NCBI GenBank assembly: GCA_016932715.1
Contig: JAFGCG010000028.1
Span: 1-64,000 of the forward strand
DNA from: Anaerolineales bacterium
GTDB taxonomy: Bacteria > Chloroflexota > Anaerolineae > Anaerolineales > Villigracilaceae
DNA: 64,000 nt
Direction of reading: 5' to 3'
Positions 44,878 to 55,054 of the stretch are shown one piece after another (within the stretch, counting starts at the first letter, position 1; each line of letters starts with the position of its first letter). The position numbers and the translations under genes are program-made. The notes under the pieces are model-generated. The model did no database searches. It saw only the letters and a list, made by a program, of their open reading frames with translations, and was not told the DNA's origin.

Positions 44878-45912
44878 TTAAATTGGATGCAATCCACTAA
44901 ACTCAAGCCCTGTGGTCTCCGCCCAGCCCATAATTAAATTGGTACATTGTACCGCAGAACCGGCTGCCCCTTTCATTAAATTATCGATTGCGCACATGGA
45001 CACGATGTGCCCACTGCTTTCATCCAATTCAAAACCCAGATCGGCGTAATTCGTTCCAGCCAGGATCTTCGGTTCCGGCACGCGATAAATGCCGCGTTGT
45101 TCTTTGACAATTCGCACAAACGGATTTTCATTCGCGACGAGGCGATAGGCTTTCCACAAATCTTTCGTGGCAACACCCGGCTTTACTTTGGCATGAGCTG
45201 TCGCCAGCACGCCGCGCACCAGATCCACGGCAGTCATGGTCAGCGAGACCTGCTGCACGCCCATTTCCTGAATCACTTCCGCAGTGTGACGATGACCGAA
45301 GGCAGAGAATGTCCGGATCACATTCGCGCGTTCCGCGTGATGCGACCCCGCGTTCCCCTCCGCGCCCGACTCCGACGATCCCACTTTGATCTCAATAAAA
45401 ACAGGAAACGACGTATCCAATAAATCCGCTTTGACAAGCGGCAGCAGCGCAAGGTTGCTCGCCGTGGCATTGCAGCCCACCCCACTGACATAATTTGCAT
45501 TTGCCAAATCTGCGCGATGCAATTCAGGCAACCCGTACACAAACTTACTCAACCACTCAGGTGCGGCATGTTTCTCGCCGTACCACTGCTCGTAAAATGC
45601 CGGATCGCGCAGGCGAAAATCCGCCGCCAGGTCGATGATCTTCGAACCGATCTTTGCATACTCTTCGATGTGATGCTGCGCCTGTCCATGTGGCTGCGCG
45701 AGAAAAAGGATGTCGACAGGCTCGAGCGTCGCGGCATCACTGAACTTGAGCTGCGTTTGCTTGCGCAGGTTCGGATGGACCTGGTATACGTATTCACCCA
45801 AATGCGAACGCGAGGTTGCCTGTTTTACTTCCACATGCGGATGGCTTAGCAGCAGCCGCAGCAACTCCCCGCCCCCGTAGCCTGATCCGCCGATGATGGA
45901 TGCGGTTGTCAT
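44878..45912 (-). CDS. argC: [LysW]-aminoadipyl/glutamyl-phosphate reductase
   Basis: A 344-residue reductase (ArgC/LysY) reducing the carrier-bound acyl phosphate to the semialdehyde with NADPH. It has the Rossmann start [17 protein letters not shown], the nucleophile cysteine in [12 protein letters not shown] and the histidine-bearing [26 protein letters not shown] resembles LysY-type proteins. It overlaps the argX-like stop (ATGA) and feeds lysJ. Confidence 0.93.
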
Positions 45913-46781
45913 TGAACATACTCCTTGCTTGCAACGTTGACAACATACTCGACAATCTCGCCCGCGATGTCGACGCCGCTTAAAGGCTGCATGGTATGAA
46001 ATTCCATCGTGTGATTGATCTCGTTGACGATCAAGCCCCGATCAGGGTGTTCGACCAGATCCACAGCCAGTACGCCGCCGCCGACGGAGGCGGCCGCCCG
46101 CAGGCTCAAGTCTTCGATCTCAGGCGTGATGGGACAAAGTTCGCCCTCGCCGCCGCGCGCCGTGTTCGTGATCCAATGCTCAGACTTGCGATACATGGCA
46201 GTGATCACATTCCCGCCGATCACGATCACGCGGATATCGCGTCCGGGCTTGTCAATATATTCCTGAATGTAAAACACGGAATGCTGTGCGGAACCAAGCG
46301 TTGCCTTGTGTTCCAGCACCGCCTCGGCTGCATCGCGGTCATTGACCTTTGCCAGCAGCCGACCCCACGAGCCAACCACCGGCTTGAGCACCACGGGATA
46401 ACCCATGGCTTCGATTGCCTCCAGCGCAGCTTCCGGTGTGAATGCGGTCGCGTTGTGTGGCTGTGGGATTCCATCGCGGGTGAACATTGCGCTGGTCATC
46501 AACTTATCCCCGCAAATTTCCGCCACCTGCGCGGTATTCACCGTGGGCACGCCGAACGCATTCAACAGCCGCAGCGCATACAGTCCGCTGTTGAAACTGA
46601 TGCTTCGTTCCAGCACGGCGTCATACTGCTGCCACACCTGGGGACAGTTCAAGTCAAAGTGGATCGCGCGGTCATCAAGCCGGTCATAATCGATGCCGCG
46701 TTTTTCCAGCGCGCCGAAAATCCACTTCTCTTCGACGCGCACACGTGAATACAACACGCCGATTTTGAGTCGTCTGTGCAT
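45909..46781 (-). CDS. LysX/ArgX family LysW ligase, probably glutamate-specific (ArgX)
   Basis: A 290-residue ATP-grasp ligase that joins the alpha-amino group of an amino acid to the C-terminal glutamate of LysW. ATP-grasp segments include [18 protein letters not shown] and [10 protein letters not shown], with metal ligands in [11 protein letters not shown] paralogue is encoded at 50574-51443. The loop after NHTMEF differs: [13 protein letters not shown] here and RNSITTTGVNIPA in the other. Because this copy is in the arginine-type operon beside argC and lysW, I assign it to glutamate (ornithine branch). GAGG precedes ATG. Confidence 0.85.
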
Positions 46782-46796
46782 AAAACCTCACGAAAT

Positions 46797-46855
46797 GCAG
46801 AAGTCAGAATGCGGAATGCAGAATTATTCTGCACTCTGCATTCCGCATTCAACAT
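46797..46855. repeat. Hairpin-forming CAGAATGC/GCATTCTG repeat between lysW and argX-like gene
   Basis: CAGAAGTCAGAATGCGGAAT is followed after a few bases by the opposing ATTCTGCACTCTGCATTCCG. The arms can fold into a long imperfect hairpin. Same family as the carB heptamer. Confidence 0.6.
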
Positions 46856-47026
46856 TTACTCTCCCCAATCTTCCTGTTCCATGGGGGCAAGCTGGATCGT
46901 CGCGGGGTCGAGCGCGGTCACTTCCAGATCCACGCCGCAATCGGGGCAGACGATGATCTCTCCCACTTCGGTGTTTTCCGCCAGCGTAACTTCTGCAGCA
47001 CATTCAGGGCAAGTAACTGTAGACAT
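46856..47026 (-). CDS. lysW: LysW amino-group carrier protein
   Basis: A 56-residue acidic protein too short for many gene finders. It starts MSTVTCPECAAEV, has a second cysteine pair in CPDCGVDLEV (zinc-binding ribbon) and ends EDWGE. The EDWGE tail is the defining LysW feature: its terminal glutamate is linked to the alpha-amino group of aminoadipate or glutamate, protecting it and presenting it to LysZ, LysY, LysJ and LysK. AAAGGAG lies nine bases before ATG. It sits between argH and the argX-like ligase. Confidence 0.96.
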   Translation of the reverse strand: MSTVTCPECAAEVTLAENTEVGEIIVCPDCGVDLEVTALDPATIQLAPMEQEDWGE

Positions 47027-50573: not shown

Positions 50574-51443
50574 TTATGCAAACATGGCGAATTCCTCCGC
50601 TGGAACTCGTACTTTCGACAAAACATACTCAACCATCAACGCAGGGATGTTGACGCCCGTCGTCGTGATGCTGTTACGAAATTCCATGGTGTGATTGACT
50701 TCGTTCACGACCAGGCCGTTCGCGGTTTCGAACAGATCGATCGCCAGCAACCCACTGCCCATGGCACGCGCCGTTCGCCGGCAAATTTCGACCAACTCGG
50801 AATTCAGCGGGCAGTTCGACGCAACACCGCCGCGCGCCGTGTTCGTGATCCAGTTTTCGGAGGTGCGGTAGATTGCGCAAACAGGCTCGTCACCGACCAC
50901 GAAGGCACGGATATCGCGCCCCGGCTTGTTGATATATTCCTGCAGATAGAAGACCTGATGATTGACACCGAGTGTCGCTTTATGCTCGATGAACGCCTCC
51001 GCTGTGGAACGGTCTTCCACTTTGGCAAGCAGGCGTCCCCACGAGCCAACCACGGGTTTCAGCACAAACGGATAGCCGATCTTTTCCGCGGCTGCCAACG
51101 CTGACTCTTCATCGAAAGCCATGATCACGCGCGGGGTCGGGATTCCTTCTCTCACCAGGATCTGGCTGGTGACGTATTTGTCGCCGCAGCGCTCCGCCAC
51201 CTGTGGTGAGTTGACCACCTTCACGCCATTGGCTTCGTAGATTTTCGAGATGTACAGTCCGCGTGAATACGAGACCGAACGCTCGAACAAAACATCCACC
51301 GGCTCAGGGACATGCGAGATGTCAAAATACAGGTTCCCATCATTGATGCGGACGACCTCCACATCTTTGTGCTTTTCCAGTTCCTCCAGCAGATATTTCT
51401 CTTCGAGACGTAAGCGTGTGTATAAAAATCCGATGCGAGTCAT
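50574..51443 (-). CDS. lysX: Alpha-aminoadipate-LysW ligase
   Basis: A 289-residue ATP-grasp ligase paralogous to the 45909-46781 gene. ATP-grasp segments [17 protein letters not shown] and VGDEPVCAIYR and the metal-binding VNEVNHTMEFRNS are intact. The following loop ITTTGVNIPALMVEYV resembles, from memory, the Thermus LysX type (NSVHTTGVDIP). It is the last gene of the homocitrate synthase-lysT-lysU unit, with its own upstream lysine-type leader, so aminoadipate is the likely substrate. AAAGGAG precedes ATG. Confidence 0.88.
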   Translation of the reverse strand: MTRIGFLYTRLRLEEKYLLEELEKHKDVEVVRINDGNLYFDISHVPEPVDVLFERSVSYSRGLYISKIYEANGVKVVNSPQVAERCGDKYVTSQILVREGIPTPRVIMAFDEESALAAAEKIGYPFVLKPVVGSWGRLLAKVEDRSTAEAFIEHKATLGVNHQVFYLQEYINKPGRDIRAFVVGDEPVCAIYRTSENWITNTARGGVASNCPLNSELVEICRRTARAMGSGLLAIDLFETANGLVVNEVNHTMEFRNSITTTGVNIPALMVEYVLSKVRVPAEEFAMFA

Positions 51444-51475: not shown

Positions 51476-51973
51476 CTAACGTAACAGTTCCTGAATGTCG
51501 TGTTCTTTCAGGAAGTTGACGATGCCACCCGCTTCGGCGATCTTCAAAACAAAATCGGGCAGCGGGCGCGCCTGATATCGATGTCCATTTGTGTGATTGG
51601 AAATCTCGCCGCTGGCAAGGTCGACGTCGATCTCATCGCCCTCGCTGATGCCAGCCACCGCCTCAGGACATTCGAGGATCGGCAGACCGATGTTGATGGC
51701 GTTGCGGAAAAAGATACGCGCGAAAGATGCCGCGATGACGCATTTCGCCTGCGAACCTTTGATAGCGATCGGCGCGTGCTCGCGTGAGGAACCACAACCA
51801 AAGTTTTGCCCACCGACGATCACATCGCCGGGCTTGACATTTTTGGCATACTCCGGCTTGACCTCGCAAAAGACATTCCTGGCGAGTTCGAGGGGATCGA
51901 TCGTGATGTTGTAACGGCCGGGAATGATCTCGTCCGTGTTCATGTTTTCTCCAAATGTCCAGGCTTTGCCCAT
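51476..51973 (-). CDS. lysU: Homoaconitase small subunit
   Basis: A 165-residue swivel-domain subunit of the aconitase superfamily: TDEIIPGRYN, GGQNFGCGSSREHAPIAIKG and FRNAINIGLPILEC. With LysT it isomerises homocitrate to homoisocitrate. LeuD (isopropylmalate isomerase) is the close alternative; the adjacent homocitrate synthase and lysX favour LysU. Lies 53 bases after lysT. Confidence 0.87.
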   Translation of the reverse strand: MGKAWTFGENMNTDEIIPGRYNITIDPLELARNVFCEVKPEYAKNVKPGDVIVGGQNFGCGSSREHAPIAIKGSQAKCVIAASFARIFFRNAINIGLPILECPEAVAGISEGDEIDVDLASGEISNHTNGHRYQARPLPDFVLKIAEAGGIVNFLKEHDIQELLR

Positions 51974-52000
51974 AAGGTTCTCCTTATTCGAATATAGAAG

Positions 52001-52045
52001 TCAGAATGCAGAATATTCTGCAATCTTCATTCTGCATTCTGCATT
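52001..52045. repeat. CAGAATGCAGAAT/ATTCTGCATTCTG repeat at the lysT 3' end
   Basis: GAAGTCAGAATGCAGAAT faces ATTCTGCAATCTTCATTCTG and two further CATTCTG units. It encodes the last LysT residues (MQNAE). Confidence 0.65.
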
Positions 52046-53295
52046 AGATATTCACGTGGATCGGTGATGCGGCCCGTCAACGCGGTCGCCGCAGCCGTAG
52101 CAGGACTCGCCAGGTAGATTTCCGAAAGCGGACTGCCCATACGCCCAATGAAGTTGCGGTTCATCGTTGTGAGGGCGCGTTCGCCGGGCGCCAGAATCCC
52201 GCCGTGGCGGCCAATGCACGCGCCGCAGCCCGTGCCGGTAACCGTGCAGCCCGCGTCCATCAGGATCTCGATCAGTCCGTTTTGCAGGGCTTTTTTGTAA
52301 ATGCGCGCGCTGGCCGGCGTGACAATTACGCGTGTGAACGGATTCACTTTCCGGCCCCTGAGCATGTTCGCCACGATCTCGAGGTCTTCGTAGCGCGCGT
52401 TGGTGCAGGTGCCGATGTAGACCTCCTGCACTTCCAAGCCCTCCACCTGCTCCAGCGGCTTGACGTTGTCCACGTCCGGGTGACAGGCCACTTGCGGCGC
52501 GAGAGTCGAGACGTCCAGTTCGAGGAGACGCTCATAGCGCGGGTTCGCCGGTCGGATCTGCTCGAAGGGTCCTTTGCCTTTTGCTGGCGTCTCATTGTCA
52601 AGGTAGTCCAATGTCACCTGGTCTGCAGCGATCAACCCGCACTTCGCGCCGATCTCAGTGGACATGTTCGGGAAGATGATCCGTTCGTGCAGCGGCAATT
52701 GATCGATGTACTCGCCGCCAAATTCGACCGAGCGATAGGTGCCGCCATCCATGCCGAGCAAACCGGCGATGTAGATCATCACGTCCTTGGCATAAACGCC
52801 GGCTTGCGTGCGCCCATGCAGTTCAACGCGGATCGTCTCTGGAACTTTGAACCAGCATTTGCCGGTCACCCAGGCCACGCCGATCTCCGTCGAGCCGAGG
52901 CCCGTGCCAAATGCGCCCAGTGCGCCATAGGTGTTGGAATGTGAGTCCGCGCCGATGACGATGGAGCCCGGTGTGACAAATCCTTCCTCGATCATCACCT
53001 GATGACAGACACCCTGCTGGAACAGATGAGGTAATTCCTGCTCTTTCACGAAATCAAAGATCCTGCGATGGTTTTCGGCAGCCAGCACGTTCGGCGCCGG
53101 GTACGCATGATCAAGGTGGATCACAACCCGGTTCTTATCCAGGATTGGTTTACCGATCTCACGAAATGCCCTGATCGCCAGAGGCGTCGTGTTATCGTGG
53201 CTCATGATGTAGTCCACATCCAGCAGCAAAATTTCGCCTGCCTTCACAATCCTGCCGGCTTTGCGGGAAAAAATTTCTTCGACCAATGTGCCCAT
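52027..53295 (-). CDS. lysT: Homoaconitase large subunit
   Basis: A 422-residue [4Fe-4S] subunit. Cluster cysteines are in VYIGTCTNARYEDL and TGCGACIGRHGG; active-site segments include HLDHAYPAP and GADSHSNTYGALGAFGTG. It acts with LysU in the alpha-aminoadipate pathway; LeuC is the nearest alternative. ATG 53295 with GGAG six bases upstream is chosen over a start four codons earlier. The C-terminal MQNAE derives from a dispersed repeat. Confidence 0.9.
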   Translation of the reverse strand: MGTLVEEIFSRKAGRIVKAGEILLLDVDYIMSHDNTTPLAIRAFREIGKPILDKNRVVIHLDHAYPAPNVLAAENHRRIFDFVKEQELPHLFQQGVCHQVMIEEGFVTPGSIVIGADSHSNTYGALGAFGTGLGSTEIGVAWVTGKCWFKVPETIRVELHGRTQAGVYAKDVMIYIAGLLGMDGGTYRSVEFGGEYIDQLPLHERIIFPNMSTEIGAKCGLIAADQVTLDYLDNETPAKGKGPFEQIRPANPRYERLLELDVSTLAPQVACHPDVDNVKPLEQVEGLEVQEVYIGTCTNARYEDLEIVANMLRGRKVNPFTRVIVTPASARIYKKALQNGLIEILMDAGCTVTGTGCGACIGRHGGILAPGERALTTMNRNFIGRMGSPLSEIYLASPATAAATALTGRITDPREYLMQNAE

Positions 53296-53384
53296 AAGTT
53301 TCTCCAAATGCAGATTTCAGAATGATGAATGCAGAATTCTTAGTGCCGAACCGCAGGTCTTATTCTGTCTGCATTTTGCATTCC
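53296..53384. repeat. Gap with CAGAATGATGAATGC-type repeats
   Basis: The space between lysT and homocitrate synthase holds CAGAATGATGAATGCAGAAT and an opposing GCATTTTGCATTCCTCATT, another copy of the hairpin-forming repeat family. Confidence 0.55.
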
Positions 53385-54767
53385 TCATTTGTTGTTCCCG
53401 TTATATTTTTTCAGCACCATGCGCGTTTCGGTCCGCCGGACGCCCTGCACACCGCGGATCTCCTCGATCAGGTTATTCAAGGCCATCACATCCTCCACAT
53501 TGACGAACGCATTGATGTCGAAATCGCCGGTGATCTCGTAGACATTGGCAACATTCTTGAACCCGCGCAAACGACGGACGACTGATGAGGTGTACACATG
53601 TGAATCAACTTCCAGCATCACCATCGCGCTGATATCGTGCGGGATGACGTCGATCGCGCGCCCCGTGACCTGTTCGGCAATCTCGAAGATGTCGCTGTCG
53701 AAGAGTTGTTTCCGGTCATCGCCCAGATTTTTGATCCGCGCAACAATGACTTCCAGCTCCGCCATGCTGACCTCGATCCCGTATTCCTCCAGCCGTGCTG
53801 CGACCGCGCTTTTCCCCGTGTATTTGTCGATCACGATCTTGCGCTCGCGCCCCAACAGCGCCGGATCGAAGGGTTCATACGTACGCGGGTCTTTGAGGAT
53901 GCCGTTGGTATGCACGCCGCTTTTATGGCTGAACGCGTTTTGACCCGTGATGGGTTTATTGGGTGCAAGAAAAAAACCCGAGACTCGTTCGAGATAACTT
54001 GAGAGGTTCATCAGAGGCTCGAGGTTATATTTCTCCACTCCATCAAGATTGTGAAATGCGACAATTGCTTCGGCAAGGTCAGGAATCCCGGTACGCTCGC
54101 CAAGCCCGTTGACCGTGGTGTGGATGCAGTCCGCGCCCCCGCGAATCCCTGCCATGGCATTCGCCAGGGCAAGCCCATAATCGTCGTGGCAATGCAAATC
54201 GATTTTGCAGGGAAGCAATCGCTCGCGCAGCGCACAGACTCTTTCAAACATAATGTGCGGCTGCATGATGCCAAGGGTGTCCGCAAAGCTGATACGGTCC
54301 GCGCCCGCTTCGATGGCGGCGTTACACACGCGCACCAGGAATTCAAAGTCTGTACGGGTCGCGTCTTCGGGCGTGTAGCGCACTTTCAAGCCGAGGCTGC
54401 GCGCGTAGGCAATGTGCTCACAGATGATCGCAAGCGCCTGCTCCTGCGTCTTATGCAGTTTTGAATCCAGGTGAATTTTGGAGGTCGCATAAAAGATCGC
54501 GACCCGGTCGGCGCCACAGGCTTTGGCGCGGTCGATGCTCTGGCGGGAGGCAATCGAATGGGCAACGATCTCCGCCCGCAGTCCGAGGGAGGCGATGTGT
54601 TCCACTGCCTTCGCAATGCTGGGCGCGACACTTGGGTCGCCCGCTTCGATCATCTCCACACCGACTTCATCCAGCAGGCGCGCGATCTCGATTTTTTCGT
54701 CAACCGTAAAATTGACATACGGAGTTTGCTCGCCCTCACGCAATGTTGTATCCAAGATTTCAAGCAT
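53385..54767 (-). CDS. hcs: Homocitrate synthase with C-terminal RAM (Lrp/AsnC-type) domain
   Basis: A 460-residue enzyme condensing acetyl-CoA with 2-oxoglutarate, the committed step of lysine synthesis through aminoadipate. The DRE-TIM barrel shows LDTTLREGEQTPYVNF, metal ligands in DLHCHDDYGLALANAM and the active-site segment NAFSHKSGVHTNGI. Residues about 380-455 form an extra alpha/beta domain (VMLEVDSHVYTSSVVRRLRG ... ITGDFDINAFVNVEDV) like the amino-acid-binding RAM domain of Lrp regulators. That domain suggests lysine feedback inhibition, as described for archaeal enzymes. AAAAGGAG precedes ATG. The gene follows a lysine-codon leader. Confidence 0.92.
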   Translation of the reverse strand: MLEILDTTLREGEQTPYVNFTVDEKIEIARLLDEVGVEMIEAGDPSVAPSIAKAVEHIASLGLRAEIVAHSIASRQSIDRAKACGADRVAIFYATSKIHLDSKLHKTQEQALAIICEHIAYARSLGLKVRYTPEDATRTDFEFLVRVCNAAIEAGADRISFADTLGIMQPHIMFERVCALRERLLPCKIDLHCHDDYGLALANAMAGIRGGADCIHTTVNGLGERTGIPDLAEAIVAFHNLDGVEKYNLEPLMNLSSYLERVSGFFLAPNKPITGQNAFSHKSGVHTNGILKDPRTYEPFDPALLGRERKIVIDKYTGKSAVAARLEEYGIEVSMAELEVIVARIKNLGDDRKQLFDSDIFEIAEQVTGRAIDVIPHDISAMVMLEVDSHVYTSSVVRRLRGFKNVANVYEITGDFDINAFVNVEDVMALNNLIEEIRGVQGVRRTETRMVLKKYNGNNK

Positions 54768-54840: not shown

Positions 54841-54873
54841 ACAAAAAGCGCTCTCCGTTGTCGGAGAGCGCTT
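54841..54873 (-). terminator. Leader terminator of the lysine operon
   Basis: Minus strand: AAGCGCTCTCCG, loop ACAA, CGGAGAGCGCTT, then TTTGT. A 12-bp stem about 75 bases upstream of homocitrate synthase. Confidence 0.87.
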
Positions 54874-54913
54874 GGTAAGCAGGCAGGTATAAAGAACTAC
54901 AATGAGTTTCCGT

Positions 54914-55012
54914 CTATTTCCTGTTTAACCAAACGAAGCCCAATTCCGACAACCGAAGTTGCAGATTGGGCTTGCGCTTAGACTTGGGTTCAAACAGAAA
55001 AACAGAACTCAT
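54914..55012 (-). CDS. Lysine-rich leader peptide of the homocitrate synthase operon
   Basis: A 32-codon ORF beginning MSSVFLFEPKSKRKPN and ending GFVWLNRK, then TAG. Codons 10, 12 and 14 are AAG (lysine). The ATG lies about seven bases after the predicted transcription start and has no ribosome binding site. Its layout (hydrophobic start, then PKSKRKP) mirrors the arginine leader (PRSRRPKP). Confidence 0.77.
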   Translation of the reverse strand: MSSVFLFEPKSKRKPNLQLRLSELGFVWLNRK

Positions 55013-55026
55013 AGGTATTGGGCGGT

Positions 55027-55054
55027 ATTCTACTACCCTTGCGAAATATGTCAA
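55027..55054 (-). promoter_or_regulatory. Promoter of the lysine operon
   Basis: Minus strand: TTGACA (plus 55049-55054), spacer TATTTCGCAAGGGTAG, then TAGAAT (55027-55032). Near-identical to the arginine-operon promoter. Confidence 0.8.

Follow-up and report, generated by a model that had tools for sequence, protein, structure and literature searches.

The closest described systems are the leader-peptide attenuators of the trp, his, thr, leu, ilv and phe operons of Proteobacteria, in which a short ORF carries codons for the regulated amino acid and matches its operon, strand 1 of the RNA lies directly past these codons, and competing 1:2, 2:3 and 3:4 pairings are combined with an intrinsic terminator. 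The leader of the homocitrate synthase gene (hcs) analysed here has the same plan. It differs from the Proteobacterial attenuators in its amino acid, lysine, in an ORF that starts only 5-14 nt past the -10 box, in an extra hairpin (P2) between strands 2 and 3 and, in our sequence, in an ORF that spans strand 2 with a stop codon preceding the 3' strand of P2; it matches no leader family in Rfam. Leader-peptide control also occurs outside Proteobacteria, in the trp, ilv and leu attenuators of Actinobacteria, the survey of which reports no conserved upstream RNA structures for the arginine and lysine operons of that phylum (PMC1262725). According to a 2010 survey, no leader-peptide case outside Proteobacteria and Actinobacteria preceded its own Firmicutes one (PMC2965389), and a 2013 survey lists His, Leu, Thr and Trp as the only attenuators offered by Rfam at that time (PMC3766115). 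Elsewhere, lysine genes are controlled by RNA switches of the L-box (RF00168) and T-box (RF00230) type, neither of which the hcs leader matches. Among the matches listed in the open-licence literature we found no report of such leaders in Anaerolineae or Chloroflexi. For lysine itself, Tsubouchi et al. reportedly described in 2005, in J Biol Chem, leader-peptide attenuation of the lysine (aminoadipate) cluster of Thermus thermophilus, where a short peptide likewise precedes hcs and a LysW-type lysine cluster is attenuated. A survey by Lopatovskaya and others (2010; cited in PMC4833913) may hold more on such leaders. Attenuation by a leader peptide is thus already known as a kind; the initial annotation of this DNA had taken peptide-based control of the aminoadipate route to be new, a view weakened by the Thermus precedent, and what is new is the Chloroflexota suite with its near-leaderless ORFs.

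The window, that is, the whole stretch of DNA analysed, comprises 64,000 nucleotides from an Anaerolineales bacterium. The hcs leader occupies its minus strand, with the following parts.

55049-55054, minus strand: -35 hexamer TTGACA (promoter scan)
55027-55032, minus strand: -10 hexamer TAGAAT, 16 nt from the -35 hexamer (promoter scan)
54914-55012, minus strand: leader peptide ORF MSSVFLFEPKSKRKPNLQLRLSELGFVWLNRK, beginning MSSVFLFEPKSKRKP, from ATG 55012 to TAG 54916-54914 (ORF list and coding signature of relatives)
54971-54985, minus strand: control codons AAG TCT AAG CGC AAG, with the key Lys codon at 54979-54977 (Lys in 56/56 leaders)
54965-54973, minus strand: strand 1, the 5' arm of the 1:2 hairpin, AAGCCCAAT (folding and aligned relatives)
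54945-54953, minus strand: strand 2, GTTGTCGGA, with strand 1 (inner part) or strand 3 as partner (pairing in relatives)
54936-54944, minus strand: 3' arm of the 1:2 hairpin, ATTGGGCTT (folding and aligned relatives)
54920-54930, minus strand: 5' strand of P2, GGTTAAACAGG (pairing in relatives)
54874-54883, minus strand: 3' strand of P2, CCTGCTTACC (pairing in relatives)
54857-54865, minus strand: strand 3, TCCGACAAC, antiterminator partner of strand 2 (pairing in relatives and duplex test)
54846-54873, minus strand: intrinsic terminator (3:4) of 12 pairs with a loop of 4, followed by a T-run (terminator scan and relatives)

The promoter is sigma-70-like, matching at 11 of 12 positions (0.4 on average in the shuffled region), and transcription is expected to start about 7 nt past the -10 box, so that the ORF would be nearly leaderless. 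Counted from its ATG the peptide has 32 residues; the ORF listing gives a longer, TTG-started frame of 52. The final AAG of the control run forms the beginning of strand 1, the 1:2 pairing is extended by CAAC/GTTG around TTCG, and strand 3 overlaps the 5' arm and loop of the terminator. The initial annotation had proposed a promoter, a nearly leaderless ORF, lysine codons, a 1:2 hairpin, an alternative pairing and a 12-bp terminator, all of which we recovered on the minus strand where it had placed them; the conserved hairpin P2 was absent from it. One terminator-like site is not above scan expectation (0.7 in shuffles), and since a lone site is expected by chance, the weight of the terminator comes from its conservation across leaders. 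The fold of the leader RNA is well below that of 200 dinucleotide shuffles (z -6.3), in part by way of an outer stem. This stem would join the ORF start (55012-54987) to the region behind the 1:2 hairpin (54930-54902) and thus compete with P2; among leaders whose peptide is of the MFRD type it is not evident. Small palindromic or repeated elements lie between genes of the window at 54837-54782, 51990-52053 and 46807-46850, and also behind the terminator in some relatives. A mobile repeat as the origin of the leader itself was considered and rejected, its DNA being present once in the genome (E<=0.001).

Covariance models of the L-box and T-box gave no match in the window, where no Rfam family reached its gathering score, and neither was among the sub-threshold hits overlapping the leader, as the initial annotation had predicted. 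The strongest of these hits, to a Neisseria sRNA and to GlmZ, had E-values near 0.07 and scored far below the gathering thresholds. The L-box was found nowhere in the whole genome, the same search being positive in 4 of 14 control genomes. The T-box gave seven matches in the genome, two of them over the gathering score, on contigs C22, C38, C125, C122, C146, C180 and C23, and none on the contig of hcs (C69); this genome therefore uses T-boxes besides leader peptides.

The leader DNA matches 25 other genomes at E<=1e-12 in a search of 152 genomes of the family, its own included. Among 400 genomes sampled from the order, 47 encode a homocitrate synthase of the window type, as do 8 among 400 drawn from the phylum, all 8 within the order; one of the 47 (G703) was left out, its hcs being partial. 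The initial listing of leaders was filtered by a Lys/Arg motif, with starts picked by eye, and was later redone motif-free, on the basis of a promoter, an ATG within 20 nt and an ORF of at least 20 residues. Found in this way, the leader plan is present in 54 of 57 distinct regions upstream of hcs, and 54/54 of these leaders carry the Lys motif within their first 22 residues, compared to 17.5% of random peptides of the same composition; the 54 loci are related and thus do not represent 54 independent events. The three regions without a leader are those of two Woesearchaeota (L013 and L014) and one with only 139 nt upstream before the contig ends (L102). The Woesearchaeota homocitrate synthases are 61-65% identical and have a small LysW-like ORF just upstream; a transfer of hcs between domains is possible. 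Together with a leader before lysX (L025) and one at a contig end (L042), the set comprises 56 leaders. A promoter with at least 10 of 12 matches is found in all 56 (the search extending no more than 60 nt from the assigned ATG), the -10 box lies 5-14 nt from the ATG, and this ATG is the first past the -10 box in 55. The terminator is present in 55/56, beginning 116-165 nt past the ATG, the 56th leader being cut by a contig end. The Lys leader is conserved in three families of one order, and the control genomes searched for leader loci held none. One more weak promoter match was seen on contig C167.

The ORF bears the signature of a coding sequence. Among the 23 leaders of MFRD type, pN/pS is 0.21 in frame, and a simpler counting method gives 1.25 and 1.68 for the two shifted frames; 8, 7 and 16 of 17 columns each are variable at codon positions 1, 2 and 3. 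By these measures the ORF evolves as a protein, and its translation is predicted. The key codon is Lys in 56/56 leaders (AAG in 54, AAA in 2), and none of the relatives' leaders lacks lysine at this codon; leaders without lysine codons would have spoken against the original proposal. Two codons upstream of it, 37 leaders have Lys, 9 have Arg and 10 have another residue. Lysine makes up 16% of the leader stretch through the Pro of the motif, a stretch chosen so as to end at the motif, versus 4.5% across 15 of the window's genes. Behind the motif, one-base gaps were needed in our alignment (A1) of the leaders (L001, L009, L023-L025 and others); such indels shift the frame behind the Lys codons among relatives, indicating that the peptide beyond them is not kept.

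The leaders also contain an antiterminator (2:3) and a terminator (3:4) that exclude each other, together with the protector 1:2, with weaker support in family f2. Pair counts were made on 42 of 55 leaders, the 13 omitted (family f70 and part of f2) being too divergent to align. In these 42, the 2:3 pairing is formed in 91.1% of alignment cells (24-59% when the partners are slid by 1-3 columns), the 1:2 pairing in 94.8% (outer helix 98.1%, inner 90.7%), the terminator in 95.7%, both sides being altered in 36 cells, and P2 in 90.4% (29-50% when slid). Only three 2:3 pairs have changes on both sides, a count reached by 199/500 shuffles; the number of cells so changed (16) and the covariation score were reached by 0/500. 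P2 behaves similarly, 175/500 shuffles reaching its count of doubly changed pairs, while its cell number and covariation score exceed the shuffles. In a duplex test on single sequences, 32/55 leaders gave p<0.05 (26/38 in family f1, 5/7 in f70 and 1/10 in f2).

The effect of a ribosome on these pairings was computed by masking 28 nt at the key codon, the ribosome footprint being of that size. The 5' part of the terminator then forms a median of 15.4 pairs with upstream RNA instead of 3.6, the rise being at least 3 pairs in 51/55 leaders; a ribosome placed at the stop codon gives a median of 2.7. Shuffled bodies show an average rise of 1.2, and 26/660 reach the observed one. The model thus predicts that ribosome stalling on the control codons would free strand 2 for strand 3. 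Without a ribosome, fewer than two antiterminator pairs form in the pre-terminator RNA in only 18/55 leaders, so that, by this equilibrium measure, the unattended RNA would not always terminate; in some leaders (among them L030, L095 and L007) the antiterminator is favoured even then.

The genes behind the leader make the amino acid that its codons encode: hcs, lysT, lysU and lysX form a lysine-making operon, followed in the window by an arginine part of the cluster with a leader of its own.

53385-54767, minus strand: hcs, homocitrate synthase, the first gene past the attenuator (TIGR02146, 414.2 bits, only just above the curated cut-off of 413.55)
52027-53307, minus strand: homoaconitase-type large subunit, lysT (TIGR01343 and TIGR02086, over cut-off)
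51476-51973, minus strand: homoaconitase-type small subunit, lysU (TIGR02087, over cut-off)
50574-51443, minus strand: lysX, the first of two LysX-type ligases (TIGR02144, 348.8 bits, cut-off 275.6)
50376 to about 50180, minus strand: argG leader MPSSFALPRSRRPKPTSPEKVGSLSFG, with Arg codons and a like promoter and terminator (sequence reading)
46856-47026: LysW gene, in the arginine part (TIGR01206, over cut-off)
45909-46781: second LysX-type ligase, in the arginine part

Residues 376-455 of the hcs product, at its C-terminus, match the regulator LysM (NF040947, E 5.8e-18), which suggests that this part of the enzyme is an amino-acid-binding domain. The argG leader, probably the 'first' leader meant by the initial annotation, is followed by argG, a GNAT gene, argH, LysW, the second LysX, genes of the argC/lysY and lysZ types, and then gltB, gltD, carA, carB, a gene of the LysJ/ArgD type and LysK (gltB, gltD, carB, argH and the GNAT gene were named by eye). 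A LysW system of this type may function for lysine and arginine alike. The genes for lysine alone thus follow the Lys leader, and those for arginine, together with the shared ones, follow the Arg leader.

Leaders of this design are not limited to lysine and arginine. The start block GTAGAATACCGCCCAANATG occurs, with up to 2 mismatches, in 96 of 152 genomes of the family, and we read a selection of sister loci (L046 and L109-L176) picked among the matches listed, which is not a census; one example of each gene was assigned by NCBIfam and the rest by a script that looks for short sequence signatures, and their hairpins were judged by eye. Among the loci read, Arg-x-Arg-Arg is present in 28/28 distinct argG leaders and Arg codons in nearly all of 10 carA leaders; Thr runs precede aspartokinase in 8/8 and Phe/Tyr runs precede aroH in 9/9, a His run precedes hisG in two (the second being L173), and argD and lysX have one leader each. 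The Phe/Tyr, His and Ile/Leu/Val types are exemplified by L147, L148, L163, L173 and L130; in L163, whose assignment is less certain, an Ile/Leu/Val run lies about 540 nt upstream of an ilvD-type ORF. The genome of the window has a Thr leader of its own (L153, G000:C96:72436), MFAHGFGMTMTTTTSRSFREEFVPG, before an aspartokinase gene and with the same start block. One carA leader (L124, MFIQILLNYINQTFFDLTDLIQDFNKNFN) has no Arg codon and is perhaps decayed or re-specified. In 9/9 chosen pairs of Lys and Arg leaders, the 40 nt preceding the ATG resemble each other; the ORF and attenuator body are similar above shuffles (p<0.05) in only 4/9, mostly in the terminator, which leaves common descent of the whole Lys/Arg cassette unsupported. 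Besides the -35 and -10 hexamers, a spacer (ATTTCGCA..G.GTAG) and a GC-rich CCGCCC before the ATG are common to Lys and Arg leaders, in the window (55060-55016) as at sister loci, and a common regulator or stringent-type control acting on the shared start region is possible. Read from sequence, the agreement of codon and pathway in the sister leaders is a natural codon swap and the strongest of all the support for control by the leader peptide.

We therefore propose, with a probability of about 0.9, that the hcs leader is a ribosome-mediated, Yanofsky-type attenuator of hcs-lysT-lysU-lysX that senses charged tRNA-Lys. The basis for this is the conservation of the leader, the coding signature of its ORF, the fixed Lys codon, the competing pairings and the codon/pathway match in the sister leaders; from these we infer that the promoter is active, that the ORF is translated, that termination occurs in the cell and that lysine is the signal. 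The ribosome would start on the nearly leaderless ORF and, with ample lysine, pass the Lys codons, allowing 1:2 to pair and strand 3 to join strand 4, so that the polymerase stops. When charged tRNA-Lys is scarce, the ribosome would halt at the Lys codons right before strand 1 and cover it; strand 2 would then pair with strand 3 around P2, the terminator would come too late and the operon would be transcribed. The original proposal of a switch by charged tRNA-Lys is thus upheld by codons, pairings and pathway, and is to be relaxed as to strict lysine specificity, given the nearby Arg codons. The codon after the key Lys is Arg in 51/56 leaders (Lys in 3, His in 2), and a few leaders (L030 and L033) have a single Lys between Arg codons, so that something besides lysine may contribute to the signal. 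The leader might accordingly serve as a dual attenuator: scarcity of either charged tRNA would halt the ribosome at the Lys-Arg(-Lys) run, and the initial reactions of the lysine pathway would be coupled to both amino acids, for which the cluster has LysW-type enzymes in common. The Arg codon two before the key Lys in 9/56 leaders, the Arg-x-Arg-Arg at the like place in Arg leaders, and the location of lysW with the kinase, reductase, transaminase and hydrolase genes behind the window's Arg leader are all in agreement with such a dual role. We nevertheless consider it unlikely, if well within reason: the key position is always Lys in Lys leaders and Arg in argG leaders, as if it alone were decisive, and the neighbouring Arg codon (CGC in 46 and CGA in 5 of 56) may persist for reasons of RNA or ancestry.

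Attenuation by tRNA supply is also to be weighed against a halt caused by the peptide itself. Arrest peptides such as TnaC and SpeFL respond to other ligands, and a nascent chain together with free lysine in the exit tunnel, rather than an empty A site, could stall the ribosome on the hcs leader; the K-x-K-R-x-P motif kept across families, with its Pro codon at the base of the hairpin, would suit such an arrest. The residues before the motif vary freely by group (MFRDRASILMEA, MFTHPVFLM, MESPVNIPVAF, MNEFSRSKF) and the frame behind it shifts among relatives, which together argue against an arrest peptide, and sister leaders of five other amino-acid groups keep the plan with other residues. We thus hold this explanation to be very improbable. 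An undescribed riboswitch binding lysine or aminoadipate, with the ORF incidental, appears to us slightly more improbable still. It would account for a conserved, structured RNA with alternative helices and a terminator; it fits poorly with an ORF under protein-level selection and with the lack of any Rfam family at gathering score, and conserved unpaired nucleotides resembling a binding pocket are not evident by eye in alignment A1. That sister leaders exchange codons and bodies yet keep one plan is particularly hard to reconcile with a riboswitch. A chance ORF next to an ordinary terminator, without regulatory meaning, is scarcely credible, since a single terminator-like site is expected in a region of this size, but not the plan at 54/57 distinct loci, the coding signature and the covarying alternative pairings.

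The attenuator of hcs would then be one member of a larger set. We think it probable that Anaerolineales possess a modular suite in which one promoter-plus-start design stands before Lys, Arg, Thr, Phe/Tyr, His and possibly also branched-chain operons, with control codons particular to each, and that the LysW cluster is split between a Lys leader for the lysine-only genes and an Arg leader for the arginine and shared genes, the Lys leader possibly reading the supply of both lysine and arginine. The presence of the Lys leader beside Arg, Thr, Phe/Tyr and His leaders of similar start suggests that such control is at home in Chloroflexota too, and the suite would constitute a natural experiment on codon specificity. 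For the organism, two leaders would offer a simple account of how balance is kept in a pathway shared by lysine and arginine.
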